Source of the DNA: Ilumatobacteraceae bacterium
GTDB lineage: Bacteria > Actinomycetota > Acidimicrobiia > Acidimicrobiales > Ilumatobacteraceae
Length of the DNA: 64,000 nt
Reading direction: 5' to 3'
NCBI GenBank assembly: GCA_033344875.1
Contig: JAWPMO010000001.1
Coordinates: 3,869,595-3,933,594 of the forward strand
The notes under the pieces are model-generated. The model worked only from the letters and a program-made list of their open reading frames with translations. It had not been told where the DNA came from and did not search any database. The position numbers and the translations under genes are program-made. The stretch's first letter is position 1. The number at the start of each line of letters is the position of its first letter. Below are positions 12,866 through 64,000 of this stretch, in pieces.

Positions 12866-12908
12866 GAGCCCAGAAGGGGAATTGAACCCCTGACCTACGC
12901 ATTACGAG
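12866..12908 (-). repeat. attL: 43-bp duplicate of the tRNA-Thr 3' half
   Basis: Identical over 43 bp to 43405-43447. It includes the tRNA 3' end (discriminator complement at 12867), T-arm, variable region and the anticodon stem up to the anticodon. Identity stops abruptly on both sides. It is a non-functional tRNA fragment left by site-specific integration. Confidence 0.92.
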
Positions 12909-13723: not shown

Positions 13724-14100
13724 CGGAGGCGAGTGCGTTGGATGGATGTGTCGTGAAGCGCGTCGATGCCGGGCGCGTCGAATCGGTGTCGAGTTCGTTG
13801 ATCGAGACCGATGAGGCGGTGGATCTGGCGGAGATGTTCCGGCTCCTCGGTGATCCGACCCGGGTGCGGATCTTGTTCGCCCTGTTGGAGGCGGGTGAAC
13901 TGTGTGTCTGCGACATCGCAGCCGTGGTCGACACGACCGAGACAAAGGTGTCCCAAGCGATGCGGCTGCTCCGCAACGCCGGCGTCGTGCGGAACCGCCG
14001 CGACGGCCGCAACATCTTCTACCGACTCGACGACGCACACGTCCGCATGCTGCTCGATCTCTCCCGCGAGCACCTCGCCCACAGTCGGGATTCGCGCTGA
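13714..14100 (+). CDS. ArsR/SmtB family metalloregulator
   Basis: A 128-residue winged-helix repressor. ELCVCDIAAVV is the classic alpha-3 metal-binding box (ELCVCD) of ArsR/CadC proteins that sense As(III), Cd or related soft metals. The recognition region is TKVSQAMRLLRNAGVVRNRR. The start is uncertain: ATG 13714 lies inside the putative operator dyad, and in-frame TTG 13738 or GTG 13753 would leave the dyad outside the gene. It heads a four-gene operon: its stop overlaps the CDF transporter start (TGATG). It likely represses that operon until metal binds. Confidence 0.88.
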   Translation: MQVSEASALDGCVVKRVDAGRVESVSSSLIETDEAVDLAEMFRLLGDPTRVRILFALLEAGELCVCDIAAVVDTTETKVSQAMRLLRNAGVVRNRRDGRNIFYRLDDAHVRMLLDLSREHLAHSRDSR

Positions 14101-15029
14101 TGGGCGGCGATCACGACCACGGCCCCGGACTCGCCCGCGCCGGCGAGCGCCACCGCGGCCGCCTCTCGATTGCGTTCGTCATCATCTTCGTGTTTTTCGT
14201 CGTCGAAGCGATCGCGGGATTCGCCACGAACTCGTTGGCGTTGCTTTCCGATGCCGGCCACATGTTGACCGACGTGATCGGGATCGGCATGGCGCTCGCT
14301 GCGATCCAGCTCGCGTCACGGTTCGAGCAGCGCGCCGATGACGGCGTTCGGTCGTCGCACACGTTCGGGCTGTACCGGCTCGAGATCCTCGCCGCATTCG
14401 TCAACGCCCTGTTGTTGTTCGGGGTTGCGATCTGGGTGTTGATCGAAGCGGTCCGCCGCATCTTCGACGAACCCGAGGTGCTCGGCGTCCCCATGTTGGT
14501 CGTCGCCGTTTTGGGGTTGGTCGCGAACCTGGTGGCCTTCGCGTTGCTGCGGGAGGGCTCGAAGGAGTCCCTCAACGTCGAGGGTGCATACCTTGAGGTG
14601 CTCGCCGACACGATCGGCTCGGTCGGTGTCATCGTCGCCGCGATCCTGTTGCAGGTGTTCGGCTGGGCGTGGGTCGATCCGGTGATCGGTGCTGCGATCG
14701 GATTGTGGATCCTGCCGCGCACGTACCGATTGGGCCGTCGGGCGGTGCGCATCTTGCTGCAAGCCGCGCCCGACCACGTCGACCTCGACGCGCTGTCGGC
14801 CGACCTGGAAGCGATCGACGGGGTCGTCGACGTACACGATCTTCATGTGTGGACCCTCACCTCGGAGATGGACGCCGCCTCTGCGCATCTGATGACCGTC
14901 GATGGCACCGACGCACACGACGTCCTCGACCGCGCCCGTCACGTGCTTGCCGACTCTCACGGCATCACGCACGGCACCTTCCAAGTCGAACCTGACACCC
15001 ACGAAGGTTGCCACGAGGTCACCTGGTGA
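14100..15029 (+). CDS. Cation diffusion facilitator (CzcD-like)
   Basis: A 309-residue CDF family proton/metal antiporter. Six membrane spans are visible from IAFVIIFVFFVVEAIAGF to WAWVDPVIGAAIGLWI. The binding site A motif LLSDAGHMLTD (DxxHxxxD) and VLADTIGSVG (DxxxS-like) are intact, with a cytoplasmic ferredoxin-like domain after residue 215 (VVDVHDLHVWTLTSEMDAAS). It has a His/Asp N-terminus (GGDHDHG). Expected substrates are Zn, Cd or Co. It sits between its ArsR regulator and a DUF3703 fusion, overlapping both by a few bases. Confidence 0.92.
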   Translation: MGGDHDHGPGLARAGERHRGRLSIAFVIIFVFFVVEAIAGFATNSLALLSDAGHMLTDVIGIGMALAAIQLASRFEQRADDGVRSSHTFGLYRLEILAAFVNALLLFGVAIWVLIEAVRRIFDEPEVLGVPMLVVAVLGLVANLVAFALLREGSKESLNVEGAYLEVLADTIGSVGVIVAAILLQVFGWAWVDPVIGAAIGLWILPRTYRLGRRAVRILLQAAPDHVDLDALSADLEAIDGVVDVHDLHVWTLTSEMDAASAHLMTVDGTDAHDVLDRARHVLADSHGITHGTFQVEPDTHEGCHEVTW

Positions 15030-21638: not shown

Positions 21639-23195
21639 ATGACGGCAGCTTCGTCTCCCATCCGCCGTACCCGGCTCGCGATCGCCCTCCTGATCGCTGC
21701 GCTGGTGTCGATCGGTACCGGGCAACTCGCCTCCGCGCACACCGACTTCGACTCGTCCTCTCCGACCGACGGTGCGGTCGTCGACGGTCCACTGAGCGAG
21801 GTCGTGGTCAACTTCACGAACCCTGCTCGACCAGCCGGTGAGGGTTTCCAGCTGCTCGATCCGAGCGGAGTAGTGCTGGCGCCCTCGTCGATCGACGAGA
21901 CCGACGGTACGTCGTTCGTGCTGACGTTCGAACCGCCGCTCGAGGCCGGCACGTACGGCCTCCGCTGGAGTGTGCAAGCTGGCGATGCGCACCCGATCGA
22001 GGGGTCGTTCCGCTTTGACGTGGCAGGTGGTGCGTCAACAACGGAGCAGGCAGCGGAGACTCAAGCCGTTCCCCCGCCGCCGACGACAGCAGCGGCGCCA
22101 CCGACGACGTCGGCTGCGGCGCCGACGAGTTCTGGCGGCATGGACATGACAGATCCCGACCACGTGGCGATGTCCGACAGCACACTTGATGCATTCCTCA
22201 CTGTCGATTCGGGTGACGACGGGTCCGCCGCCGTGGGGAGCGCGGGCCGGACCGCGTCGATGCTCGGGATGATTTTCGGTGTCGGGGTGCTGGCCGCATT
22301 GGTCTGGACGGTGCGAGGCCACAGGGAGGAGCTCGTCTCGCAGCTCAACTGGGTTCGACTCGCAGGGCTCGTGGTCGTCACCGGAGGGTTGATCGAATAC
22401 GCCGCGCTGACCGAGAACGATCCCGCGGCATCGCTCGGCACATTGCTCAGCACCAAGCCTGGCCTGGCGACAGCCCTCAAGATGGTGGGCGGTCTCGCCG
22501 TCATGTTCGGGTTCCACGAGCGCGCTGGGCGGATCATTGCGCCCGCCCGTTCACTCTCGGCTGCTGTCGCCACCGACCTTGCGCCTCGCACCGATGTCGG
22601 ACCGATCGCGCCAGTGCGACACGGTGACCGCGTCGACGAGCACCGTTGGACACCGACATCGACTGCAGCGTTCGGTCTGTTCGGCTACGCATTGGTGCTG
22701 ATCTCGTTCTGGTTCGACGGTCACACGGTGAGCAAGGGCCCGTGGGCCGTCCACTCTCTCGTCAACCTCGTACACCTGGGCGCCGCCGCAGTATGGGGCG
22801 GCGGCGTGTTCGCCATCACGACGATTGCGTGGATGCGTCGTCGGCGATCAGAGCGGGTCGGTCTCGCTGCGATGGTGGTTCGGTTCTCCTCGATCGCGAC
22901 CGTGTCGCTCGCGTCGGTGATCGTCGCAGGTCTGGTGATGACCTGGATGGTGCTCGACTCGCCGGGCGATCTGTTCGGGACCCCGTGGGGTCGCATCCTG
23001 CTCGCGAAGACTGCCGTGGTCGCGGTTGCGGCCGGCCTCGGCGGGTACAACCACTTCCGGCTGCGCCCGGCACTCGAGGAACGACCTGACGACCCGAACC
23101 TCGCCAGGGAGCTGCGCGTCAGCCTCTCGATCGAGTCCGCTGTGTTCGTCGTCATCGTCGTCCTCACCGCGATCCTGGTCGCCTCGGCCACCTGA
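21639..23195 (+). CDS. CopC-CopD fusion copper protein
   Basis: A 518-residue protein. After a signal peptide (IALLIAALVSIGTGQLASA) comes a CopC domain, residues about 34-130: the mature N-terminus starts with the first copper-ligand His (HTDFDSSSPTDG), and SVQAGDAHPIEGSFRF carries the second. A Pro/Thr/Ala linker leads to a CopD membrane domain of about eight spans (residues 205-515) with VHSLVNLVHLGAAAVWGGG. This architecture mediates copper binding and transport across the membrane in actinobacteria and Bacillus (YcnJ). It is convergent with the cupredoxin gene. Confidence 0.9.
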   Translation: MTAASSPIRRTRLAIALLIAALVSIGTGQLASAHTDFDSSSPTDGAVVDGPLSEVVVNFTNPARPAGEGFQLLDPSGVVLAPSSIDETDGTSFVLTFEPPLEAGTYGLRWSVQAGDAHPIEGSFRFDVAGGASTTEQAAETQAVPPPPTTAAAPPTTSAAAPTSSGGMDMTDPDHVAMSDSTLDAFLTVDSGDDGSAAVGSAGRTASMLGMIFGVGVLAALVWTVRGHREELVSQLNWVRLAGLVVVTGGLIEYAALTENDPAASLGTLLSTKPGLATALKMVGGLAVMFGFHERAGRIIAPARSLSAAVATDLAPRTDVGPIAPVRHGDRVDEHRWTPTSTAAFGLFGYALVLISFWFDGHTVSKGPWAVHSLVNLVHLGAAAVWGGGVFAITTIAWMRRRRSERVGLAAMVVRFSSIATVSLASVIVAGLVMTWMVLDSPGDLFGTPWGRILLAKTAVVAVAAGLGGYNHFRLRPALEERPDDPNLARELRVSLSIESAVFVVIVVLTAILVASAT

Positions 23196-31557: not shown

Positions 31558-32424
31558 CTAGGAGACCTCGCTCGGCTCCACCTCGACAACGGGATCGTCA
31601 TGCTCCCGCGCTCGTTCAGCACCGCGAGGGTTCACCCGAGTCCGGTCGACGATGAAGAACGCGGTTACCCCGACGAGCACGATCATCGACATCCACTGGT
31701 TCCAGCGCAAGCCCGCAATCTCCGGTGCGGGGTCGATCCGCAGCCCTTCGACCCACAGCCGACCGAGGAAGTAGCCACCCAAGTAGAACGCGAACAGCCT
31801 GCCCGGCCGCAACCACGCACGACGATCCGTCATTAGCAGCACGCCACAGAGGGCAAGGCTCCACATCGATTCGTAGAGGAACGTCGGATGGAACGTAGTC
31901 CCGGATGCGTACCCGGCGGGCAGGTGAGCGTCGTCGATCTGCAGCGCCCACGGCAAGGACGTCGGGCGGCCGAACAGTTCCTGATTCCACCAGTTGCCCC
32001 AGCGGCCGATCGCCTGTGCGAGCGCAACCGCTGGTGCTGCGATGTCGAGCATGACTCGGATGTCGATGCCACGCCGGTGCGCGGCAACCAGGCCGATGGC
32101 AACTCCGCCGGCGAGGCCACCCGGGATCCCGAGGCCGCCTCGCCACAGCGCAGGTATCGCCCAGAGATCGGACGCGAACCGATCCCAGTCGGTGACCACG
32201 TGGTAGAGACGCGCGCCGACCAAGCCTCCCGCGACGGCCCACATCCCGACGGCGGCGATGTCGTCCTTGGACGCGGCCTGCCGTTCTTCGGCCCTTCGAC
32301 CGGCCAGCCAGACAGCGGCGGCCACGCTCAGGCCGATCATGAGCCCGTATGCGGTGACGCGCAGCGGGCCGATGTGCAGCGAGGACGACGGTGGACTGGG
32401 AATCGAGGCAACGAACGCATGCAT
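31558..32424 (-). CDS. lgt: Prolipoprotein diacylglyceryl transferase
   Basis: A 288-residue integral membrane enzyme that transfers diacylglycerol to the lipobox Cys of prolipoproteins. The Lgt signature AQAIGRWGNWWNQELFG and GARLYHVVTDW (catalytic His region) are intact, with seven predicted spans. It is the first gene of an lgt-blaI-M56 operon diverging from the multicopper oxidase. Since the chromosome should have its own lgt, this is probably an accessory copy. At least four exported cargo proteins have lipoboxes, giving it substrates. Confidence 0.92.
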   Translation of the reverse strand: MHAFVASIPSPPSSSLHIGPLRVTAYGLMIGLSVAAAVWLAGRRAEERQAASKDDIAAVGMWAVAGGLVGARLYHVVTDWDRFASDLWAIPALWRGGLGIPGGLAGGVAIGLVAAHRRGIDIRVMLDIAAPAVALAQAIGRWGNWWNQELFGRPTSLPWALQIDDAHLPAGYASGTTFHPTFLYESMWSLALCGVLLMTDRRAWLRPGRLFAFYLGGYFLGRLWVEGLRIDPAPEIAGLRWNQWMSMIVLVGVTAFFIVDRTRVNPRGAERAREHDDPVVEVEPSEVS

Positions 32425-32505: not shown

Positions 32506-34007
32506 ATGGTCCCCCAGAGTTTCACGCGTCGCAGGTTCCTGAGCGGCGTCGCCGCTGGGGGACTGTCGGCATGGCTCGCGTCGTGTTCGTCGGACGGCAG
32601 GAGTTCGTCGCCGTCGACCCTGCCATCGACGTTGTCGGGCTCAAGCACAACTGGTCGTGCCGCCCTCGGCGCGGCGTTCGCTCAGCCGGAGGTGTTCGCC
32701 AGCAGTCGCGGCCTCCTCGAGGTCGTGCTCCGCGCCGAAGAGGCTCAGGTTCCGTGGGTGATTCGACGCGCTACTGCCTCACGTACAACGGGACGACGCC
32801 GGGCCCGACGCTGCGTGTGCGGCCAGGTGATCGGCTCCAGATCCGACTGGAGAATCGACTCGAGGAATCGACCAACCTGCACACCCACGGCCTCCACGTC
32901 TCGCCGGAAGGCGACGGCGACAACGTCTTCGTCGCCGTCGGTCCGGGTGAGGACCGCACGTACGTCTACGACATCCCCGCCGACCACCGCAGCGGCCTGT
33001 TCTGGTACCACCCGCATGCACACGGCACGGTCGCCCGGCAGGTCGCAGGTGGTCTGGCCGGTGCAATCATCGTGATCGACGATGTGGACAACGCGCCCGA
33101 TCTGGTGGGTTCGAACGAACGCATCTGGATCCTTGCCGACCCGCCGATCGGTACGAGCCGCGGGATCCTCGACACGAACGCGATCGACCAGATGACGGGC
33201 CGCGAGGGTGACGTGGTGCTCGTGAACGGTGTTCTCGCACCCGAAGTGCCGGCACGCGTCGGCGAGCTCGAGCGCTGGCGGGTGGTCAACGCCAGCGCCT
33301 CACGGTATTACCGGCTGGTGGTCGACGACCACGACCTGAACGTCATCGCCACGGACGGCGGGCGTCTCCCAGCTCCCGTCGCGGTGGGCGAAGCCTTGCT
33401 CGCGCCGGGAGAACGAACGGAGTTCCTGATCGCGCCGAGCGCCGAGGGCACCTTCGCAATCCGGTCCCTCCCCTACGACCGGGGTGGCGTGGGGATGGGT
33501 GGCATGGGCATGGGCGCGTCCGGCGGTACGTCGACCGAGACGATAATTGCCACCATGATCGCCGCCGGCACCGGCGACCCCGCAGCGCTCCCCAAGACGT
33601 TGCCGATCACCGACCATCCCCTGCCCGACGCCACTGCGTCACGTGCCCTCGACCTGGGGATGGGTCACATGATGGGACGGGGCGACATGGTGTGGACGAT
33701 CGACGGGCGGCCGTTCGACCCAGCGCGAACCGACATCGAGGTCGAACTCGGGGTCGTCGAGGAGTGGGAGATCCGGAACCCGACCGGTATGGACCACCCG
33801 TTCCACCTCCACGTGTGGCCCTTCCGGGTGGTCGACGGAGCGAAGGCCTCGGGCTGGAAAGACACGGTCAACGTGCCAGCAGGAACATCGGTACGGGTGA
33901 TCGTGCCGTTCACCGGCATCGCCGGGCGAACCGTGTATCACTGCCACATCCTCGACCACGAAGACCTCGGCATGATGGGCGTCATCGGCACAGGATCGGG
34001 GCGCTGA
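32506..34007 (+). pseudogene. Multicopper oxidase, Tat/lipoprotein, frameshifted
   Basis: The N-terminus MVPQSFTRRRFLSGVAAGGL (twin-arginine signal, then WLASC lipobox) reads in one frame to QVPW at about 32757. The rest (GDSTRYCLTYNGTTPGPTLR to the stop at 34007) is in another frame. Adding one G to GGG 32756-32758 restores a single protein of about 500 residues. All copper motifs are intact: LHTHGLH, FWYHPHAHG, HPFHLHVWP and HCHILDHEDLGMM, with a Met-rich GMGGMGMG loop. It would oxidise Cu(I). Either a true recent frameshift, a sequencing error in the G run, or programmed slippage. A GTG at 32458 is an alternative start. Confidence 0.8.
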
Positions 34008-34090: not shown

Positions 34091-34612
34091 ATGAACGTCG
34101 AACCTCGGAACGCGAGACGTGTCCTCGCAGCGATCACGATTGCGCTCGCCGTCGCCGGATGCGGGGGTGGGGGTGATGACGGTTCAGCCGTTGCGCCATC
34201 TCCAGCGACGTCCACCGACGTGGAGAGCAGCGAGTTGGCGGGCGTGTACTTCGACGTCCGGCGCGACCCCGGTTGAGGTTGCTGCTCCGGGTGGGTCGTG
34301 TACCTGCAGAACCACAGCGCTGAGGTCGAAATGACGGACGACCCCGATCGAGCTGCGTACCGGGCCGAGGTCGGCGTGCCCGACGAAGCTGCCTCGTGTC
34401 ATACCGCGATCGTCAACGGCTACGCACTCGAAGGCCACATCCCGGTCGGCGCGATCGAACGGCTCCTCCAAGACCGTCCCGACGCAGTCGGTCTGGCCCT
34501 TCCGGGAATGCCTACCGACTCCCCTGGGATGGGCGGCGACGTGACCACCTGGGAAAGCCAACCCGTCATGCTCATCGGTCACGACGGCTCCCTTCAGCCA
34601 TTCGACTACTGA
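34091..34612 (+). CDS. DUF411 lipoprotein with in-frame UGA, candidate selenoprotein
   Basis: One frame from ATG 34091: signal with lipobox (AAITIALAVAGC), Gly/Ser linker, then VYFDVRRDPG, TGA at 34274-34276, GCCSGWVVYLQNHSAEVEMT, SCHTAIVNGYALEGHIP and LALPGMPTDSPGM, all DUF411 hallmarks. In DUF411 the motif is CGCC-x-x-W; here the TGA stands exactly for its first Cys, and homology continues in frame on both sides. A hairpin with GGUC in its loop follows the TGA, and a tRNA-Sec gene is at 63164. With read-through it has 173 residues. If TGA is a plain stop, it is a one-base (TGC to TGA) pseudogene. The family is linked to copper and other metal resistance. Confidence 0.7.
34277..34313 (+). 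promoter_or_regulatory. SECIS-like hairpin directly after the UGA
   Basis: Pairs: GGTT 34277-34280 with AACC 34310-34313; bulged G 34281; CTGC 34282-34285 with GCAG 34306-34309; upper stem GGGT 34289-34292 with ACCT 34302-34305 (one G-U). The apical loop holds GGTC (34294-34297), starting 18 bases after the UGA. Bacterial SECIS elements sit in the coding region just after UGA and expose a G-U-containing loop to SelB; the best known has GGUC at nearly the same distance. Confidence 0.55.
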
Positions 34613-34641: not shown

Positions 34642-35058
34642 TCACTCACTGAGCCGAGCCTCGATGACCTGGCAGCGGTGCGCGTCGACACAGTCGGCCG
34701 GGTCGGATCGGTCGGCACGCTCCATCAGTTCATGGAGTTCGCGTCGTGCAGACTCCAATCGGTGGATCTGGACGTCGACCTCGGTCAGCTGCCGCTGAAT
34801 GAGGGAGCGGGTGTGTTCGCAGCTGCGCTCACCCTGGCCCTTCAGCTCGAGGATGGACTTGATCTCGGTGAGCGTCAGCCCAGTCGCCTGGGCATCGCGA
34901 ATGAAGCGGAGCCGTTCCAGCGTCGTCGAGTCATATGCCCGATACCCGGACGGCGTCCGATCCGGTGTCGGTAGGATGCCGATCGATTCGTAGTAGCGAA
35001 TCGTCTTGGTCGTCACCGCAGCCTGTTCAGCAACTTCGCCGATACGCATGGCGCTCAC
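34642..35058 (-). CDS. MerR family heavy-metal regulator (CueR-like)
   Basis: A 138-residue MerR protein: MRIGEVAEQAAVTTKTIRYY (HTH), ESIGILPTPDRTPSGYRAYD (wing), then a dimerisation helix and C-terminal loop DPADCVDAHRC whose two Cys (C-x5-C) are in the position of the CueR metal loop. Its start overlaps the copper ATPase stop by four bases, so they form one operon. It probably activates the promoter at 37239-37270, which has the long spacer typical of MerR targets. Confidence 0.88.
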   Translation of the reverse strand: MSAMRIGEVAEQAAVTTKTIRYYESIGILPTPDRTPSGYRAYDSTTLERLRFIRDAQATGLTLTEIKSILELKGQGERSCEHTRSLIQRQLTEVDVQIHRLESARRELHELMERADRSDPADCVDAHRCQVIEARLSE

Positions 35059-37181
35059 CGTCCCGAATCCGTGGCGAGATCGTCACGCGGCCGGAGATCC
35101 AACCGCCGGAGCAACTGTGCGTTGGCGGCGACGATGATGGTGGAGAGGCTCATCGCGACCGCCGCCGCTGCAGGCGGCAGGGTGAGCCCGGCAAACGCGA
35201 ACGCCCCGGCTGCGACGGGGATCGCGATCACGTTGTACGCAGTCGCCCAAACGAGGTTCTGGATCATCTTGCGATAGCTCGCCCGTGAGAGGTCGATCAC
35301 CCCGGTGACCGCCCGTGGATCGCTCGATGCGAGCACGACACCGGCCGACTCGATCGCGACGTCGGTACCTGCTCCGATCGCGATGCCGACCTCGGCGCGG
35401 GCGAGCGCTGGTGCGTCGTTGACGCCGTCGCCGACCATCGCGACGCGTAGACCGCGCTGCTGGAGCTCGGCGACCTTGGCGTCCTTGTCCTGTGGGAGCA
35501 CTTCGGCCATGACCTCGTCGATACCGAGTTCGGCGGCGACGGCGTCGGCGACCTGCCTGGCGTCGCCGGTGATCATGATCACCTGTTTCCCACGGGCGTG
35601 CAGGGCGTCCACGGCGGCTCGTGATTCGGGCCGAATCTCGTCCGCGACCGTGACCGCGCCCACCACCTCGCCGTCGTGGACGACGTACAGGACGGCGCCG
35701 CCACGGTCACGCCACGTCGTGATCCGATTGGCGAGCTCGCCGGGTTCATCGAGCGCCAGATGGTCGAGCAGTGCGGGCCCGCCCACGGCGATCTCGTGTC
35801 CATCCACGATGGCGGCGATGCCGCGTCCCGTGATGGCATCGAACTCCGACGCAGCCGGCACGTCACCGAGTTCGTCTCCGACGGCGACGATCGCTCGTGC
35901 GATCGGATGCTCGCTGTCGGCCTCGGCTGCCGCAGCGAACCGCATCATCTCGTCGGCGTCCCATCCCTCGATCGCTTCGCGATCGATGACGGCGTGGTTG
36001 CCCTTGGTGAGGGTGCCGGTCTTGTCGAACATCACGGCGTCGACGGTGCGCATCCGCTCGAGCGCCAGCCGGTCTTTGACCAGGATCCCCGCTCGTGCGG
36101 AGGTCGCGGTGGTGATCGAGATGACGAGCGGGATCGCCAGTCCGAGCGCGTGTGGGCACGCGATCACGAGCACGGTGACCGTGCGGATGACGCCGTTTGC
36201 GCCGTCGCCGAGCGCCGCCCACACGACCAAGGTCATGACGGCGGCTCCGGTGGCGACGTAGAACAGTGCAGCTGCAGCCCGATCCGCGAGCGCCTGGGTG
36301 CGCGAGTTCGAGCTCTGGGCATCGGCCACCAGGCGTTGAATCCCGGCCAGCGCCGTGTCGTCGCCCAGAGCGTCGACGCGGACGCGGATCGCCCGATCCG
36401 ATGACACCGTGCCCGCCACCACGCGATCGCCCTCACCACGGTCGACCGGACGGGACTCGCCCGTGATCATCGACTCGTCCATTGCCGCCGATCCGTCGAT
36501 GATTACACCGTCGGCGGGAACTCGACCGCCCGGGCGGACCAGCACGACATCGCCCCGTTCCAAGTCGGCGATCGCGACCTCGATCGGTTCGCCGTCCTCG
36601 ATTCGCTCAGCCCGATCGGGCAGCAACTCAGCCAGCGCCGAAAGCGCCCCTTGTGCCTGGCCAATTGCCTTCATCTCCTGCCAGTGACCCAACAGCATGA
36701 TGACGATCAGCGCCGCCAACTCCCACCAGAAGTCCAGTTCACCCCAGCCGAGCGAGCTGGCGAGTGACGACCCGTAGGCGACGGTGATGGCGAGGGCGAT
36801 CAGGAGCATCATCCCCGGCTGGCGAGCTTGGACCTCGTGCACCGCGCCCTTCAGGAAGGGCTGTCCACCCCACAGGAAGATGACGGTGCCGATCACCGGT
36901 GACACCCACGCCGCCCATGAGGCGTCGATGGAGTACCCGAACCACTCCTGGACCATGTGTGAGAAGACGATCACCGGAATCGCCAGCAGTAGGTTCCACC
37001 AGAACAGTCGCCGGAACATTGCCGGATCGTGCCCGGCGTGCTTGTCATGGCCGGCATGCGAGTGCTCGTCGTGGCGGGGCGGGTGTCCGCGATCGTGAGT
37101 TCCATGCTCGACGTCGGCGTCGGGCGTTGCGCCGTGGCCCTCGTGTCGGCTTTCGGCCGTCGCCTGATCGTGTGTTGCCAT
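35055..37181 (-). CDS. copB: Copper-exporting P-type ATPase, CPH type
   Basis: About 708 residues. The cytoplasmic N-terminus is His-rich (HDEHSHAGHDKHAGHD). The membrane motif is VIACPHALGLAIPL (CPH, P1B-3/CopB class). The phosphorylation site is DKTGTLTKG, with TGES, GDGVND and the SEHPIA motif also intact. ATG 37181 was chosen because GGGAG lies 8 bases upstream; an ATG at 37220 is only about a dozen bases from the expected transcript start. Exports Cu (I or II) from the cytoplasm. Followed by a CueR-like gene in the same operon. Confidence 0.92.
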   Translation of the reverse strand: MATHDQATAESRHEGHGATPDADVEHGTHDRGHPPRHDEHSHAGHDKHAGHDPAMFRRLFWWNLLLAIPVIVFSHMVQEWFGYSIDASWAAWVSPVIGTVIFLWGGQPFLKGAVHEVQARQPGMMLLIALAITVAYGSSLASSLGWGELDFWWELAALIVIMLLGHWQEMKAIGQAQGALSALAELLPDRAERIEDGEPIEVAIADLERGDVVLVRPGGRVPADGVIIDGSAAMDESMITGESRPVDRGEGDRVVAGTVSSDRAIRVRVDALGDDTALAGIQRLVADAQSSNSRTQALADRAAAALFYVATGAAVMTLVVWAALGDGANGVIRTVTVLVIACPHALGLAIPLVISITTATSARAGILVKDRLALERMRTVDAVMFDKTGTLTKGNHAVIDREAIEGWDADEMMRFAAAAEADSEHPIARAIVAVGDELGDVPAASEFDAITGRGIAAIVDGHEIAVGGPALLDHLALDEPGELANRITTWRDRGGAVLYVVHDGEVVGAVTVADEIRPESRAAVDALHARGKQVIMITGDARQVADAVAAELGIDEVMAEVLPQDKDAKVAELQQRGLRVAMVGDGVNDAPALARAEVGIAIGAGTDVAIESAGVVLASSDPRAVTGVIDLSRASYRKMIQNLVWATAYNVIAIPVAAGAFAFAGLTLPPAAAAVAMSLSTIIVAANAQLLRRLDLRPRDDLATDSGR

Positions 37182-37238
37182 GGATCGCTCCCACTTCTCG
37201 CTGCTCAGATCGGGGTTCATGAGATTCTTGATGTCCTA

Positions 37239-37319: not shown

Positions 37320-40300
37320 TCACCGTTCGAGGCCGATCTCGGTGGACGACCCGCGTTCAGGGGCATGGAACACCGGTTCGAATCCGTGGTCGGCCGCCCA
37401 GTCTTCGAGCGGCGTGGTGAGAGCTTGGACTTCGCTGCGGCCGAGAAGACCCGTACTGCCGAAGGTCGCCAGCGCGTCAGCACTCGCTTCGATGGTGACC
37501 GGGAAGCCGTCGGCCCATCGACGCCAGGTGTCGAGCGCTTCGGAGAGCGCGTGGAGTTGGTCGGTGTCGACGTTTCCGAGCAGGAAGTTGCGTCGGAGGG
37601 GGAGGTTTCTGATCGAACGCTCGGCGCGTTGGATCTCGTCGTGAGCTGTTGAGATCGCATTGGTGGCCGGGCGGGCGGTTGCTTCGACGGCAGCGAGAAG
37701 ACCTCTCGCCTGTGCGAGTTCATCATCGGCTCGGCCCGCTCTTCGGCGCGCGGCGGGACGCTTGATCGCCTTGGCTCGGCGGAGGGCTGCGTTGGTCGTC
37801 CACACTTGTTGTTGGGCGGATTCGACGTCGGCGCGTGCGTTGTCGAGCGCTGGTCGGTGGGGGTCGAGGAGGCGTTCGGCTTCGAGCAGTTGTTGTTGGG
37901 CGTTGTCGAGTTCGGCGTGGTGCCGGTCTGCCATTGCGTCGAGTTGCGCGCGCTTCTCTTCGACGCGCTGGAGACGGCTGGTGATGTTGTTTGTGAGGTC
38001 GTCGAACCAGTGCGGGAGGATGCAGCGAGGTTGTGGTGTGGAACGTTGCCGCCCGAGGTGTCGGGTCGTCTCGGCGAGTGCTCGGCGTTGCGCGATCGCG
38101 GGTAGGTCGACTCGGTCGTTGGCGATGACGCGTTCGAGGATGTCGCGGGCTTCGTCGAGGTCGTGTGTTTCGGTGACGACGAGCATGAGGTTCTCGGTGC
38201 GGCCTCTGGTGGCGCCGACGTAGAGGCCGCGCCTCGAGGTGGCGTCGGTGACGACTTCGATTGCGGCGGCGGTGGTGTCGCCTTGGTTGCCGTGCTCGGT
38301 GGCGGCGTAGCCGAGGTGGACGTGTTCGGCGGCGTAGTCGGCGGGCAGTTCGACGACGCCTGTGCCTTCGTTCGACGACGCGGTGACGGTGCCGTCGGCG
38401 CCGATGCCGGTGACGGTCCATGTTTCGCGGTTGCGGACGACGTCGCCGGTTGTCGTGGTGAGGCGGCGGTTGTTGCGTCGGGTGACGACGACGTCGCCGA
38501 CGCACGCGAACTCGGTGCCGCCGATCGGCGCGAGCGTGGTCGGGTCGATGTCGCCGGCGGCCGCTCGTGCTGATTGGATCGCCGTGTTGATCCGGTCGAC
38601 GTGGTCGTTGCTGGACGCGGTGATCGCGAGGGTCTCGCCCGCGGCGTGGGTCTGGCTCCACCGGTCGACGACGAGCGCGACTTGTTCGTCGAACGTGCCG
38701 GGGATGATTCGGTCGTGGGCGATGTAGTCGTCGAGTGCTCGTGGGTCGCCGCGTCGCAGTTTGAGGGACGCGGCTGGCTCCCAGGGTTCGGTGAAGCGGT
38801 GGATCCGGTCGAGTTCGTGAACCCGTCCGGTGACGGTGAGTTCGTGGAACATGCCACCTCGGCCAACCGCTTGGAGTTGGTAGGGGTCGCCGACGAGCGC
38901 CACCCGCCATCGTCGAGCCGCGGCGAGTTGTGCGAGTTCAGAGAGGGAGTGGGTGCCGACCATGCCGGCTTCGTCGACGATCACCGTCGTGCCGGCCGGG
39001 AGTCGATAGTGGTCGAGGGGTGGCCGGTCGGTCCGGTTCCATTCGTGGAGGAGTTTGTCGAGCGTGTCGGATTCGATGCCGGTCTCTCGTTTGAGGACAC
39101 GGGCGCCCTTCGCCGACGGCGCAACTCCGAACACCGGGCGGCCAACACCGTGGAGGTCGTCGATCGCGGCGCGCAGTGTGGTGGTCTTGCCGGCCCCGGC
39201 GGGTCCGACGACGAGGACGAGTTGGTCGTGGCCAGCGACTGCGGCGGCGACGTCGGCCTGCATGACGTCGAGGTGCGCGCCGTCGACGGTCGTTGACGGT
39301 CGGGGGTCGTCGGCTTGGGCGGCGAGCGCCCACGATGCGATCAGTTCTTCTTCGGCGAGGATGGCGTCGGTGGTGATGTGCGGACTGATCGGTTCGTGAA
39401 ACAGCGATCGCCCGTCCGACACACGCCGCGGCGTCGCCGTGTGGTCCGGGTCGAGTTCGATGCAGTGGCCGACGACGGCGTCGGCCCACTGCTCGATGCG
39501 CTCCGCCCACTGCTTGCCGGTGAGTGTGGGGTCGGGTCGGGCGACGTCGGCCACGGCGGCGACGATCTGGGCCCGGTTCCACGACGATCCCGATGACGAC
39601 AACGCGTCGATGAGTTCGGCGACCGTGATCGTCGGCGGCCGCTCGTCGCGATCGACCTGCTGGGTTTGGAGTTCCTCGATCAGCCCGAAAGCGTCCCAGC
39701 CGGCTGCCGCGGCCTCGGTGTCCCACCGTGTCGTGAGTTCGGAGACGCCGGTGCCGGATTTGCGCGCCCGCGTGTCGACCGCGGCCTCCCGCTTGAGCGC
39801 GCCGATTTCCCACTGGTTGGGGTCGCGTCCCTTCCGCGCGGCGAAGTCGTCGACCTTGACGGCGACAGCTTCGTTGATCTCGTCCGCCCGCTTCGAAAAC
39901 ACGGCGAGCAGATCGTCGGGCATGGCGGCCATCTCGGCCTGGCCGTTGTCGATCGTTGCCCAGTCGATACCGAAACGGTGGGTGAGTTCGTTGCGGAGCA
40001 CCGACTGGTAGAGGCCGCCCAGCATCCTCTGGTGTCGCTTGAGATAGCGGGCGTCGAGGGCGAGCCAGCGGCCAGCCGCGGTCTGCACCTTCGCCGAGAT
40101 GACACAGTGGGTGTGGATCTGTGGGTCATCCGCGCGAGATGTCGTCTGGCGGAACGCAGCGATCGTGAGACCTTGCGAGTCGGGGTGGAGTCGGCCGCCG
40201 GCGGATCGGATGCGGGTCGTCGAACCGAACCGTTCGAGGTGGCCGAGGGCAGCGTTGACGGCGACGTCGTGCGCGGCGAGGAGTCGCTCGTCTCGGGTGA

Positions 40301-40613
40301 GCGCCCACAACACACTGAGTGACTTCGGTGCGGAGAAGGTCGCGTCGAACCCGGCGACCGCCTTCACAACCGTGCCGTTCGCGAGTTCTCGGTCCCGGAG
40401 AGCTCGCCCGAGCGGTGTCCCAGTTGTGGGGTCACGGCCTTCGAGGACCGACTGCAGATCGTCGGCGATGACGTCACCGACGAGGTCGAGACCCGGTGCT
40501 TGGCGGCCGAGCCACTTCCCGGGAACCTCACCGGGCGCCTCGGTGAGATAGCGGGTGTAGTAGTCGACAGCGGCGGCCGCCGAACCGGCGTAGATCGTGC
40601 GAACCCGCAACAT
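37320..40613 (-). CDS. MobF relaxase (TrwC/TraA type) with helicase domain
   Basis: A 1097-residue protein from ATG 40613, start MLRVRTIYAG. The relaxase domain has the catalytic Tyr pair in VDYYTRYLTE (residues 18-19) and the metal His set in DPQIHTHCVIS (about 165-170). The helicase part has Walker A GPAGAGKTT (about residue 460), VDEAGMV and later AATEHGNQGDT. A long coiled-coil region (EKRAQLDAMADRHHAELDNA ...) and a C-terminal tail follow. It nicks DNA at an oriT and unwinds it for transfer. The frame is open upstream, but that part is Ser/Arg junk. Confidence 0.92.
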   Translation of the reverse strand: MLRVRTIYAGSAAAAVDYYTRYLTEAPGEVPGKWLGRQAPGLDLVGDVIADDLQSVLEGRDPTTGTPLGRALRDRELANGTVVKAVAGFDATFSAPKSLSVLWALTRDERLLAAHDVAVNAALGHLERFGSTTRIRSAGGRLHPDSQGLTIAAFRQTTSRADDPQIHTHCVISAKVQTAAGRWLALDARYLKRHQRMLGGLYQSVLRNELTHRFGIDWATIDNGQAEMAAMPDDLLAVFSKRADEINEAVAVKVDDFAARKGRDPNQWEIGALKREAAVDTRARKSGTGVSELTTRWDTEAAAAGWDAFGLIEELQTQQVDRDERPPTITVAELIDALSSSGSSWNRAQIVAAVADVARPDPTLTGKQWAERIEQWADAVVGHCIELDPDHTATPRRVSDGRSLFHEPISPHITTDAILAEEELIASWALAAQADDPRPSTTVDGAHLDVMQADVAAAVAGHDQLVLVVGPAGAGKTTTLRAAIDDLHGVGRPVFGVAPSAKGARVLKRETGIESDTLDKLLHEWNRTDRPPLDHYRLPAGTTVIVDEAGMVGTHSLSELAQLAAARRWRVALVGDPYQLQAVGRGGMFHELTVTGRVHELDRIHRFTEPWEPAASLKLRRGDPRALDDYIAHDRIIPGTFDEQVALVVDRWSQTHAAGETLAITASSNDHVDRINTAIQSARAAAGDIDPTTLAPIGGTEFACVGDVVVTRRNNRRLTTTTGDVVRNRETWTVTGIGADGTVTASSNEGTGVVELPADYAAEHVHLGYAATEHGNQGDTTAAAIEVVTDATSRRGLYVGATRGRTENLMLVVTETHDLDEARDILERVIANDRVDLPAIAQRRALAETTRHLGRQRSTPQPRCILPHWFDDLTNNITSRLQRVEEKRAQLDAMADRHHAELDNAQQQLLEAERLLDPHRPALDNARADVESAQQQVWTTNAALRRAKAIKRPAARRRAGRADDELAQARGLLAAVEATARPATNAISTAHDEIQRAERSIRNLPLRRNFLLGNVDTDQLHALSEALDTWRRWADGFPVTIEASADALATFGSTGLLGRSEVQALTTPLEDWAADHGFEPVFHAPERGSSTEIGLER

Positions 40614-40698
40614 CACGACCCGCCCAGACGTTTGGGCACTTGTCTGTTGAAGAAAGTGGGAAGTGATCGTGAACTGGTCATGGTGATCCGCGGGGGAG

Positions 40699-41079
40699 TC
40701 AGTCCTCGAAGAGTCGAGGAGTCGTGGGACGGCGAGTGGTGCGACGCGGGTGGCGAGTCGTCGTGTGCGGTGACGGACTCCGCGTGTCGTCGTCGCAATC
40801 GGTGTGACCGACCTGGTGGTCGACGGTCGGGTGTTCGGCGATCGGCCAGGTGATCGGCGCGCCGATGTAGTGCTCGAGCCGGACGCGCGGGACACGGAGG
40901 CCTCGGCCGACCTTCAGCCCCGGGATCTCGTCGGCGTCACCGGTGGCCCGGTAGCGGTGGATCGACTCGTACACGAAGGTCAGCCCGCAGCGCAGCACGG
41001 CGGCGGTCTCGGCCACCGTCAGCAGATCCGGCGGCGCGCTGTTCGACGGTGGAGTGTCGAGTTGTCGTCGTGTCGGCAT
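40699..41079 (-). CDS. Helix-turn-helix/excisionase-family protein
   Basis: A 126-residue protein. Residues about 17-75 (LLTVAETAAVLRCGLTFVYE ... GLKVGRGLRVPRVRLEHYIG) match the MerR-like HTH-17/excisionase fold. The remaining tail is His/Thr/Arg-rich and looks disordered. It lies between relaxase and toxin genes, near the integrase end, and probably serves in element excision or control of transfer. Confidence 0.75.
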   Translation of the reverse strand: MPTRRQLDTPPSNSAPPDLLTVAETAAVLRCGLTFVYESIHRYRATGDADEIPGLKVGRGLRVPRVRLEHYIGAPITWPIAEHPTVDHQVGHTDCDDDTRSPSPHTTTRHPRRTTRRPTTPRLFED

Positions 41080-42180: not shown

Positions 42181-43305
42181 TCAATCCAGCAGGCCGCCAA
42201 TTACGTCGGCGGCTTGGCGGTCGCTGGCTTCGAGGAAGTGGGCGTAGACGTTCAGGGTCGTCGCTGCGTTGGCGTGGCCGAGCCGCCCGCTGACGGTGCG
42301 GACGGGGACGCCGGCGGCGAGGAGTTGGGTGGCGTGGAGATGCCTCAGATCGTGGAGGCGGACGCTATCGAGACCGGCCTGCTTGCGCACTCGGGTGAAG
42401 CGACCGGTGATCGTGTCGGGGTGTAGGGGGTCGGCGCCGTCGGCCGATTCGGTGAACACGTAGCCGTCGGGATCGAGCTCGAGGTCGCACGCGTCAGCTC
42501 GTTCCTCGAGACGTCGACGCTGGGCGTCGAGCACGGCGACTGTCGCATCGTCGAGTGCGATCCGGCGTGAGGCGTGGGTCTTGGTGTCCTTGACGACGGT
42601 GCCACCCGCGACGGATGCGATTGAGCGCTTGATCGACAGCGTGCGAGTGCTGCGGTCGAGGTCGGACCAGCGCAGTCCGCACACCTCGCCGCGTCGTGCC
42701 CCGGTGGCCGTCAGTACTCGGAGCAGTGCGCCGTACTCGGGGTCGTCCTCGTCGGCGAGCTCGAGCATGCGCTTCACGTCGACGATCGAGGGCGGGTTGA
42801 TCTCGCGCTGACGGAGCTTCGGCGGCGACGCCGCAGCCGCCGGGTTCATCGGAACGATGCTCCACTTCACCGCTTGGCCGAACGCTCCCCGGAACACGGC
42901 GTGCACGTGCCGGATGGTGGCAGGGGAGAGGCCGCGCTCCTTCGAGAGCATCGCGTAGTAGTCGTCGAGACGCTTCGTCGTCACTCGACCGAGTCGCAGC
43001 GATCCGACGTCGGGTTTGATCAACCGCTCCGTCAAGCGGCGGTACTCGCGCACGGTGGTCGGCGACAGCGAGCCCTCGACGTGGTCGATCCACGAGTCGA
43101 GCAGTTGGCCGAGCGTCTTGGCCGTCGAGGTGATCTTGCCCTCCGACACCTGGGCCACGAGTGCGGCGAGCGCCCGTTGCGCCTCGCGTTTGGTGCCGTA
43201 GTGGGTGCGACTGAGCTGCTTGCGGAGGCCGGTCTCCGGGTCGCGCGGGAGCTGAACGATCAACTCCCAGTTGCCGGCTTGGCGCTCACGCAATGAGCCC
43301 TTCAT
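42181..43305 (-). CDS. int: Tyrosine recombinase / phage-type integrase
   Basis: A 374-residue site-specific integrase. An N-terminal AP2-like arm-binding region (YGTKREAQRALAALVAQVSE) is followed by a SAM-like core-binding domain (LGQLLDSWIDHVEG) and the catalytic domain: R in ATGARRGEVCGLRW, HDLRHLHATQLLAAG (H-x-x-R), LGHANAATTLNVYAHF with the nucleophile Tyr. All catalytic residues are intact. It lies 100 bases from the attR core and tRNA-Thr, as usual for tRNA-targeting elements. Confidence 0.95.
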   Translation of the reverse strand: MKGSLRERQAGNWELIVQLPRDPETGLRKQLSRTHYGTKREAQRALAALVAQVSEGKITSTAKTLGQLLDSWIDHVEGSLSPTTVREYRRLTERLIKPDVGSLRLGRVTTKRLDDYYAMLSKERGLSPATIRHVHAVFRGAFGQAVKWSIVPMNPAAAASPPKLRQREINPPSIVDVKRMLELADEDDPEYGALLRVLTATGARRGEVCGLRWSDLDRSTRTLSIKRSIASVAGGTVVKDTKTHASRRIALDDATVAVLDAQRRRLEERADACDLELDPDGYVFTESADGADPLHPDTITGRFTRVRKQAGLDSVRLHDLRHLHATQLLAAGVPVRTVSGRLGHANAATTLNVYAHFLEASDRQAADVIGGLLD

Positions 43306-43404: not shown

Positions 43405-43447
43405 GAGCCCAGAAGGGGAATTGAACCCCTGACCTACGCATTACGAG
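43405..43447 (-). repeat. attR: 43-bp core within tRNA-Thr
   Basis: Identical to 12866-12908. It covers the 3' end of the functional tRNA-Thr gene up to the anticodon stem-loop, and one base (43405) beyond the tRNA. Confidence 0.92.
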
Positions 43448-43478
43448 TGCGTTGCTCTACCGACTGAGCTATCTGGGC
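43406..43478 (-). tRNA. tRNA-Thr (anticodon CGU)
   Basis: A 73-nt cloverleaf on the minus strand: acceptor GCCCAGA pairs with TCTGGGC, discriminator U (43406), D-arm GCTC...GAGC, anticodon stem-loop ACGCA-CTCGTAA-TGCGT with CGT at the anticodon, T-arm AGGGG-TTCAATT-CCCCT. CCA is not encoded. Integration of the element at its 3' end restored the gene. Confidence 0.95.
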
Positions 43479-63163: not shown

Positions 63164-63256
63164 GGAGGTGTCTGGGTACCTGGTGGGCTCCGCCGCCTTC
63201 AAAGCGGTTGGGACGGGCGATCCCCGTCCGGCGGGTTCGATTCCCGTCCACCTCCG
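63164..63256 (+). tRNA. selC: tRNA-Sec (anticodon UCA)
   Basis: A 93-nt gene: acceptor GGAGGTG pairs with CACCTCC, discriminator G (63256); anticodon stem CCGC/GCGG around loop CTTCAAA, with TCA at 63199-63201; a long variable arm GGGACGGG-CGAT-CCCCGTCC; T-arm GCGGG-TTCGATT-CCCGT. The long acceptor plus T-stem, large extra arm and UCA anticodon are diagnostic of selenocysteine tRNA. It implies that the host decodes some UGA codons as selenocysteine; selA, selB and selD are not in the window. Confidence 0.95.
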
Positions 63257-63267
63257 ATTGCAGTCGA

Positions 63268-63314
63268 ACCCTGGACCGCATGCACCGCCACGTGGGGTGA
63301 TGCGGCTCCAGGGT
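63268..63314 (+). terminator. Long hairpin downstream of tRNA-Sec
   Basis: ACCCTGGA-CCGCAT-g-CACC pairs with GGTG-ATGCGG-c-TCCAGGGT: 18 base pairs with two single-base bulges around the loop, starting 12 bases after the tRNA. Probably the terminator of the tRNA transcript. Confidence 0.65.
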
Positions 63315-63357
63315 CCGATGTCCGGTTCCGGAGCACAGGGTGAGCGCACCGCGTCGG

Positions 63358-63771
63358 TCAGATCTCCTCGATCGCCAGTGCCAGTTTCATCGCTCTGGCG
63401 GTCGGCCACCGCCGATCGGTCGTGATGATTCGGTCGGCGCGGGAGGTCTCCGCGGTCGCAATGACGAGCGCGTCGGGGAGCTTCAACGTGCGATGCCGGG
63501 CGCGAAGCCCAGCTGCTCGTGTGGCGATGTCCTCGTCGAGGGGGACGACGGACACGGGCAGCCGACCGATGGCAGTGCGCACGAGTTCGACTGCTGTCGT
63601 GCTGCGTCGGGCGGGACCGACGAGACACTCGGCCAGCGCCGATGCCGCTATCGAGAGCCTGTCGGCCTGTCCGAGGGCATTCGCCAGGGCTGAGGTGGCA
63701 GCGTCGTGGTGGGTGTCGTCGGCATCGAGGAACGCGATGATGACCCCTGCGTCGAGGTGGGTCAGTCCCAT
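63358..63771 (-). CDS. vapC: PIN-domain toxin (VapC family)
   Basis: A 137-residue PIN-domain ribonuclease. Acidic residues expected for the metal site are visible: LDAGVIIAFLDADD at the N-terminus, ALAECLVG in the middle, LKLPDALVIATAE and IITTDRRW near the C-terminus. Its start overlaps the antitoxin gene's stop by about 10 bases. A type II toxin that cleaves RNA in related systems. Confidence 0.88.
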   Translation of the reverse strand: MGLTHLDAGVIIAFLDADDTHHDAATSALANALGQADRLSIAASALAECLVGPARRSTTAVELVRTAIGRLPVSVVPLDEDIATRAAGLRARHRTLKLPDALVIATAETSRADRIITTDRRWPTARAMKLALAIEEI

Positions 63772-64000
63772 TCGGAACGAAGGTCGTCCAACTCGGTGGG
63801 GTGGTAGGTGCCGGTGAGCGCTCCAGCGAACTCGGCGACGACGTCGTGTTCGCGCTGCAGGATGACTCGTCCAGCTCCGTCGGCGTGAGCGACCACGCGG
63901 TCACCGACCTCGAGACCGGCATTGCGGAGTGCGTCGGCTGGAATGGTGATCTGATTCTTGGAACTGATCGTGGATGTCCCTCGTCGCCGTTCCTTTACAT
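63762..64000 (-). CDS. vapB: AbrB/SpoVT-like antitoxin (VapB), 5' end cut by window edge
   Basis: Minus-strand frame ending at TGA 63762-63764. It reads TSTISSKNQITIPADALRNA, GLEVGDRVVAHADGAGRVIL, then FAGALTGTYHPTELDDLRSE and WD. ISSKNQITIP-ALRNAGL-GDRV is the swapped-hairpin AbrB DNA-binding motif. The frame is open to the window edge, so the start codon lies beyond. Antitoxin to the overlapping VapC. Confidence 0.85.
   Translation of the reverse strand, partial: VKERRRGTSTISSKNQITIPADALRNAGLEVGDRVVAHADGAGRVILQREHDVVAEFAGALTGTYHPTELDDLRSEWD

Follow-up and report, generated by a model that had tools for sequence, protein, structure and literature searches.

A tRNA-Sec gene and a candidate selenocysteine-containing CopG copper protein in an Ilumatobacteraceae genome

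A CopG/DUF411-type copper-resistance gene of an Ilumatobacteraceae bacterium carries an in-frame UGA that appears to encode selenocysteine (Sec), and sequence comparison makes its product, here called Sec-CopG, a strong candidate for a new selenoprotein family. The gene lies in the window, by which we mean the whole stretch of 64,000 nucleotides analysed (C1:3869595-3933594 of a genome consisting of a single contig of 4,968,626 bp). The same window contains, at 63164-63256, a tRNA-Sec that is a genuine and ordinary chromosomal gene; the finding of this tRNA is itself correct and of a known kind. Taken jointly, the tRNA-Sec, a complete Sec pathway and the reading of UGA 34274 as Sec are considered highly probable. 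Comparison among genes and genomes provides the tRNA, the sel genes, the conserved in-frame UGA and the coding constraint on both sides of it, as well as the fold family, the linkage to copper genes and the ends of an integrative element. A sequence-only reading of the window had singled out the tRNA and recommended re-inspecting genes that end at UGA; the UGA-containing gene at 34091-34612, our main finding, came from following that recommendation.

A CopG/DUF411 gene with a conserved in-frame UGA

34091-34612, + strand: Sec-CopG, predicted copper-resistance lipoprotein of the CopG/DUF411 family (173 residues with UGA 34274 taken as Sec)
34274-34276, + strand: in-frame UGA at residue 62, proposed to encode Sec and opening the U-x-C-C motif, conserved column
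34278-34320, + strand: SECIS-like stem-loop behind the UGA (RNAalifold and pair counts, 13 sequences)
34291-34307, + strand: apical stem-loop, part of the SECIS-like hairpin, loop CGUGU (CGGGU in some relatives)

In-frame UGA codons were sought through codon usage in the window and six other stretches of the same genome. The scan recovered fdhA and missed selD; a relaxed version examined 3510 TGA triplets and kept 15 (selD being forced in), flagging 34274 on the plus strand of the window. Since selD failed the scan's own criteria, other Sec genes may have been missed. Seven of the 15 kept candidates were looked at (those of the window, of the formate dehydrogenase locus L059 and of selD); the three on the minus strand of the window (6182, 27905 and 41094) were rejected as neighbouring gene starts by appearance, with a start codon at most five codons after the UGA.

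The frame of Sec-CopG runs from ATG 34091 to a stop UGA at 34610-34612. It reads VYFDVRRDPG-U-GCCSGWVVYL around UGA 34274, both sides encoding one protein, and includes a lipobox-like VAGC at residues 21-24, recognized by eye. Behind the UGA, PF04214 (DUF411) matches with an E-value of 1.2e-24 and 83.9 bits (cut-off 27), and the whole protein matches CopG of PDB 6WIS (E 7e-23) with U aligned to the first Cys of CGCC; NCBIfam release 20.0 returned no family at E 0.01. Besides the U-G-C-C motif, M140 and M147 are invariant in 42 aligned homologues. An AlphaFold model, made with Cys in place of Sec from a 42-row alignment, has a mean pLDDT of 87.1, exceeding 90 from about residue 51 on and being low over the signal and linker. 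The modelled protein is predicted to adopt the CopG fold (TM 0.82 by target length and rmsd 1.6 against 6wje_A), and of 924 structure matches up to E 10, just five fall below E 0.001, every one of them a CopG chain (TM 0.82-0.84, again by target). PMC7558416 describes CopG as a thioredoxin-like protein of the periplasm whose CxCC and two Met hold a tetranuclear Cu cluster; there it was proposed to oxidise Cu(I) and hand Cu to multicopper oxidases. By analogy, Sec would stand at a presumed ligand position of the Cu cluster.

The UGA is shared with other genomes. A CopG search of 199 genomes (own and relatives) gave 14 matches in 12 genomes, 13 of them with exactly one inner stop, a UGA at the same place; the exception, G048, has Cys. 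A sample of the phylum (396 genomes) gave nine matches in eight genomes, with UGA only in the two copies of our genome (G000), and a sample of the order (397 genomes) five matches in four genomes, with UGA in these two copies and in G664, and two without. These samples overlap and their denominators are not additive. At 84 further loci (L074-L157; 80 from the best 80 of 580 relatives and four from the phylum sample) the motif codon is TGC in 66, TGT in 16 and TGA in two (L074 and L076), that is, 82 Cys versus 2 UGA; L074 is taken as the copy of G115 and counted once, and L158-L160 were dropped, their motif being unreadable. The UGA loci total 15, from 13 genomes; 12 of these genomes belong to the same order and account for 14 loci, and the remaining locus, L076, comes from a record named Acidimicrobiia. 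L076 and L175 are the two beyond the 13 of the 199-genome search. Their proteins share about 52-79% identity with the one encoded in the window. One of these loci is a second UGA-containing CopG gene of our own genome (L072/L171; G000:C1:3617051-3617554), which is about 53% identical and lies near genes for a P-type ATPase and cytochrome oxidase subunit I.

Coding constraint is found on both sides of the UGA. Among 14 UGA loci (without L175), pN is lower than pS behind the UGA in 91/91 pairs (means 0.233 and 0.557) and in 90/91 pairs over the 12 codons before it. Right after the UGA come G (12) or S (2) and then two Cys at all 14 loci; these Cys codons show synonymous variation only, a sign that translation crosses the UGA. 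A midpoint-rooted tree was built from 14 UGA and 28 Cys sequences, 42 in all; the Cys set comprises L071 and 27 picked from the 78 Cys loci among the best 80, and L154-L160, L175 and L176 were left out. In it, the 14 UGA sequences form one clade with the Cys sequence L075 (100/98). The fewest UGA/Cys changes on the tree are two, against a shuffled mean of 11.9, and with this root one gain of UGA and one return to Cys in L075 would be the simplest history. L075 is the nearest Cys homologue to the UGA sequences in this tree; since so close a homologue has Cys, Sec is not indispensable. A plasmid tblastn with the UGA-spanning domain (window 34226-34609) returned 3445 records, all below 60% identity and matched regardless of the codon in the U column.

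The hairpin behind the UGA has an apical stem of 6 bp starting 14 nt behind it, a CG(U/G)GU loop starting 20 nt behind it, and a lower stem of six pairs. A figure legend of PMC1794560 names a conserved G in the SECIS apical loop. The apical stem is complete in all 13 sequences of the alignment and in L076 and L175, hence at 15/15 UGA loci. Hairpin cells pair in 95.5% of cases versus 91.1% in shuffles (0/500 as high), and covariation is 0.269 versus 0.196 (0/500), with a maximum of 0.114 in six slid controls. Double changes occur in just three pairs, a number that 59/500 shuffles reach; four of the six apical pairs are invariant, and in the lower stem four of six each fail to form in one to three of the 13 sequences. 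The peptide W-V-x-Y-L encoded beneath the hairpin is conserved and partly fixes it, the Val codon GTC being the commonest among Cys homologues too (24/39). Of 82 Cys homologues, whose loci come partly from the best 80 of 580 relatives, 11 likewise have every apical pair, so the hairpin taken by itself does not prove Sec insertion. L075 retains five of the six apical pairs, comparable to the SECIS-like remnant structures named in a figure legend of PMC1794560.

The tRNA-Sec gene and the selenocysteine pathway

63164-63256, + strand: tRNA-Sec (selC), anticodon UCA, discriminator G, CCA not encoded

ARAGORN places a tRNA-SeC(tca) at exactly 63164-63256 on the plus strand. The UCA anticodon and long extra arm named in the sequence-only reading are borne out, together with G73, and the covariance-model check that it proposed comes out as tRNA-Sec: 63164-63255 aligns to the full 91 positions of RF01852 with 66.6 bits (gathering score 47; E 2.2e-11). 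This is the sole match above the cut-off among the 26 listed for the genome (150 of 966 candidates scored), the next best of those listed having 41.2 bits.

The extended acceptor/T structure also claimed there differs in detail from the textbook form, as seen in an alignment of 30 tRNA-Sec genes of this order (the window gene and 29 relatives, L026-L054). An eighth acceptor pair is formed in none: position 8 is unpaired in 30/30 (U8 x C at 29 loci, C x U at the other), so the arrangement of an 8-bp acceptor and a 5-bp T-stem is not present. The T-stem may be lengthened instead: a sixth pair (G67-C/U85) is possible in 30/30 and would keep the 13 bp as 7 + 6. We still file the gene under bacterial tRNA-Sec, because published exceptions, including 12-bp AT-stems (PMC5330540), make the 8/5 arrangement not strictly defining. 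The D-stem consists of 4 bp, a 1-nt bulge and 2 bp, and thus has six pairs, a 4-nt UGGU loop and a single bulged base; in this form 178/180 cells pair in the 30 genes, and only 101/180 in the bulge-free 6-bp stem of the Rfam alignment. A bulged D-stem base (13a) has been published for tRNA-Sec of Clostridiales (PMC5330540).

CCA is encoded in 23/29 of the relatives' tRNA-Sec genes and, according to PMC5143459, templated in 89.2% of bacterial ones. Our genome and G007 both lack it and have a common sequence just 3' of the tRNA-Sec (63256-63320 and L046), which includes an imperfect inverted repeat; in the genus-mates G001 and G005 the tRNA-Sec body is identical, yet CCA is encoded. Insertion of an element at the tRNA-Sec was considered as the cause of the loss and rejected: no second copy of the 3' 40 bases was found within 12 mismatches in the window, L021, L022 and L024 (there is one at 13), and without a repeat of the tRNA-Sec 3' end the loss is not explained by an element. 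The stretch 63358-63922 behind the tRNA-Sec has a PIN-domain gene and, ahead of that gene, a short reading frame that resembles an AbrB-type antitoxin by eye only.

RF01852 exceeds its cut-off in 48 of 61 genomes (own and relatives), with at least 58 bits over 92-93 nt in 45; in G011, G055 and G058 it reaches only 47-48 bits over 71-85 nt and may have matched other tRNAs. ARAGORN reports tRNA-Sec with UCA at all 29 relatives' loci scanned. G054 shows three matches above the cut-off (58.7, 50.9 and 47.5 bits), possibly reflecting more than one tRNA-Sec-like gene.

The partner genes that the sequence-only reading suggested looking for are all present above their cut-offs: selA (440 aa, 396 bits, cut-off 267.9), selB (573 aa, 276 bits, cut-off 242.25) and selD (367 bits, cut-off 125). 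Neither of the outcomes that would have overturned the tRNA-Sec reading, a better score as another tRNA or the lack of all other sel genes, was therefore obtained. The selA and selB frames, both on the minus strand, overlap each other some 27 kb ahead of the window. Its further suggestion, Sec-type formate dehydrogenase and SelD, was also fruitful: selD has one in-frame UGA (HGAG-U-GCK), as does one of the four PF00384 molybdopterin-oxidoreductase matches, FdhA (DSCNRT-U-HAPSV). Behind the UGA of fdhA, a 45-nt fold gives a hairpin whose loop is GGUCU; longer folds differ. The Sec-decoding trait (selA, selB, selC and selD) is thus complete-looking as judged from the genes, and at least two proteins of established types, FdhA and SelD (both listed in Table 1 of PMC13188914), make use of it. 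At L059 the Sec-type formate dehydrogenase gene adjoins a divergent gene resembling formate-tetrahydrofolate ligase by eye.

SelB was above its cut-off in 19 of 21 genomes tested, including 12/12 UGA genomes tested (G664 not among these), and also in G048 and G573, where DUF411 has Cys; its co-occurrence with the UGA adds little, because nearly all tested genomes have it, two of Cys type included. In G048 (L173, G048:C49) the Cys-type DUF411 gene adjoins selB, their reading frames lying about 60 bp apart. The statement that UGA is ambiguous in this genome is too strong as a general one: of the 48 long high-GC3 frames counted across the window and five further stretches of the genome, 43 end at UGA, and so does Sec-CopG itself.

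Copper genes and an integrative element in tRNA-Thr

12866-12908, - strand: second 43-bp copy of the tRNA-Thr end, the element's other edge
13902-15029, + strand: cation efflux protein
21639-23195, + strand: CopC-CopD copper resistance protein
31558-32424, - strand: prolipoprotein diacylglyceryl transferase (LGT)
32571-34007, + strand: multicopper oxidase (three Pfam Cu-oxidase domains above cut-off; best NCBIfam CueO, below cut-off)
34642-35058, - strand: MerR-family regulator (CueR, CadR, ZntR and MerR models all below cut-offs)
35055-37220, - strand: copper-translocating P-type ATPase (TIGR01511 above cut-off)
37320-40895, - strand: TrwC-type relaxase/helicase of the element
42181-43305, - strand: integrase (Phage_integrase) of the element, adjoining tRNA-Thr
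43405-43478, - strand: tRNA-Thr(CGU), integration site; its bases 43405-43447 form a copy of the 43-bp repeat

The surroundings of Sec-CopG fit the class of integrative mobilisable or conjugative elements that sit in tRNA genes. An exact 43-bp repeat of the tRNA-Thr end bounds a 30.6-kb element (12866-43447) that has an integrase beside the tRNA-Thr and a relaxase. Sec-CopG sits inside it, between the multicopper oxidase on one side and the MerR-family regulator and Cu ATPase on the other; the regulator is not named CueR because its matches are below every cut-off. L,D-transpeptidase and M23 peptidase genes are also carried, as is that of LGT. An integrase 94% identical adjoins the tRNA-Thr of G007; that of G001 has no such integrase in 8 kb, with about 3 kb between the tRNA-Thr and the flank gene, and no tRNA-Thr was found in the examined pieces of four other genomes.

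Copper-type neighbours, defined as a metal-type P-type ATPase, CopCD or multicopper oxidase, occur at 9 of the 14 UGA loci examined (L175 left out): the window, G006 (judged by similarity to window genes only), the first copy of G005, G007, G009, G004, G084, G115 and the second copy of G000, the latter also with COX1. ATPases at the other loci were assigned by Pfam domains only, and their metal specificity is putative. The second copy of G005 has cation efflux, ArsR and DUF305 genes nearby, and no copper-type gene was found among the two or three neighbours scanned at each of G017, G069, G096 and G574.

Readings of the UGA and comparison with known systems

Several other readings of these genes were weighed. 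If UGA 34274 were a true stop, the locus would encode a 61-residue lipoprotein and a separate DUF411 piece, with GTG 34298 as one possible restart site. Most long frames here do stop at UGA (the 43/48), and the list of open reading frames does end the frame at the UGA and begin the next at that GTG, the eighth codon behind; yet the codons in between encode (G/S)CCxxWV, whose C64, C65 and W68 are invariant in 42 homologues, the two Cys codons vary only synonymously at 14 UGA loci, each inner stop of the UGA loci is TGA, and the restarted protein would have neither signal peptide nor CxCC. We hold this reading to be very unlikely. Readthrough by a near-cognate tRNA, or decoding as Cys or Trp rather than Sec, is judged highly improbable: the Cys found at this column in homologues would suit UGA as Cys, but the genome has a UCA tRNA-Sec, all the sel genes and two known kinds of Sec gene, and behind the UGA lies a SECIS-like hairpin. 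That the gene is decaying and the UGA a disabling mutation, as a lone UGA in an otherwise open frame could suggest when viewed in one genome, is scarcely credible: the same UGA recurs at 15 loci whose proteins have diverged to the identities given above, with pN below pS in all 91 pairs behind it.

Doubt might also fall on the tRNA, as a remnant or as specialised for another use, given its mismatches in the Rfam alignment (U8 x C and the bulged D-stem) and the unencoded CCA. The mismatch at position 8 is nevertheless common to all 30 genes, the bulged D-stem pairs in 178/180 cells with both its strands varying, PMC5330540 records 12-bp AT-stems as well as D-stems with a bulge (13a), and sel genes and UGA genes are in place; this alternative is regarded as extremely unlikely.

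In the reading preferred here, 63164-63256 is the selC of an actinobacterium with a complete bacterial Sec pathway, and UGA 34274, followed by its SECIS-like hairpin, would be decoded as Sec by SelB and Sec-tRNA. Sec-CopG would then be an exported CopG-type copper lipoprotein with Sec for the first Cys of CxCC, whose selenolate ligand may let it bind or oxidise Cu(I) outside the membrane, in concert with the multicopper oxidase and Cu ATPase encoded next to it. Its likeliest role is that of a secreted Cu-cluster or redox protein dependent on the host's Sec machinery. It would be cargo of a copper-resistance integrative element in tRNA-Thr and, riding a mobile element, would therefore work only in Sec-decoding hosts. 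Sec insertion in the cell, copper binding, the chemical role and the mobility of the element today are what we infer. For the fullest version, a natural Cu-cluster protein with Sec as Cu ligand on a mobile copper-resistance element, whose resistance depends on the selenium code of the recipient, we see the balance as even.

As far as our searches show, no selenoprotein family of this kind has been described: a Sec form, comparable with Cys homologues, of a copper-resistance protein whose structure is solved. DUF411, PF04214 and CopG are absent from Table 1 of PMC9312934 (87 selenoprotein families) and from Table 1 of PMC13188914 (119 families), and a term search of the deep-Sep paper (PMC12013277) found no mention of DUF411, CopG or copper. 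Among the papers listed in searches of the open-licence literature, none was seen to concern a Sec form of CopG/DUF411, and a description elsewhere is possible. With Sec at a presumed ligand and Cys homologues available, what Sec adds to the copper site is directly testable. If the reading is true, the cargo of a mobile element needs the expanded genetic code of its host; wherever UGA is taken as a stop, the Sec-CopG gene is split in two.

With respect to known systems, the tRNA resembles bacterial tRNA-Sec (RF01852) in its anticodon, long variable arm, G73, score above gathering and the presence of all partner genes, and differs by its 7-bp acceptor with U8 x C, possible sixth T-stem pair, one bulged D-stem base and unencoded CCA. 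The element is like other integrative mobilisable or conjugative elements in its integrase by a tRNA, far-edge repeat, relaxase and metal-resistance cargo, and unlike them in that this cargo includes a UGA-containing, putatively Sec-encoding gene. Predicted metal-resistance selenoproteins, which in PMC13188914 include a MerT-type protein, a cation-transporting ATPase, a CopZ-like 2Fe-2S protein and an SO_0444 Cu/Zn transporter, have in common with Sec-CopG a Sec in metal-handling proteins, whereas those there belong to other families, DUF411 not included. Finally, Sec-CopG shares with CopG/DUF411 (PF04214; 6WIS and 6WJE) the predicted fold, the CxCC region, the Met of GMP..SPGM, the CHT and EGH motifs and the copper-gene neighbours, and differs in being actinobacterial, in its lipoprotein-type signal and in having the first Cys of CxCC replaced by a UGA-encoded residue, probably Sec.
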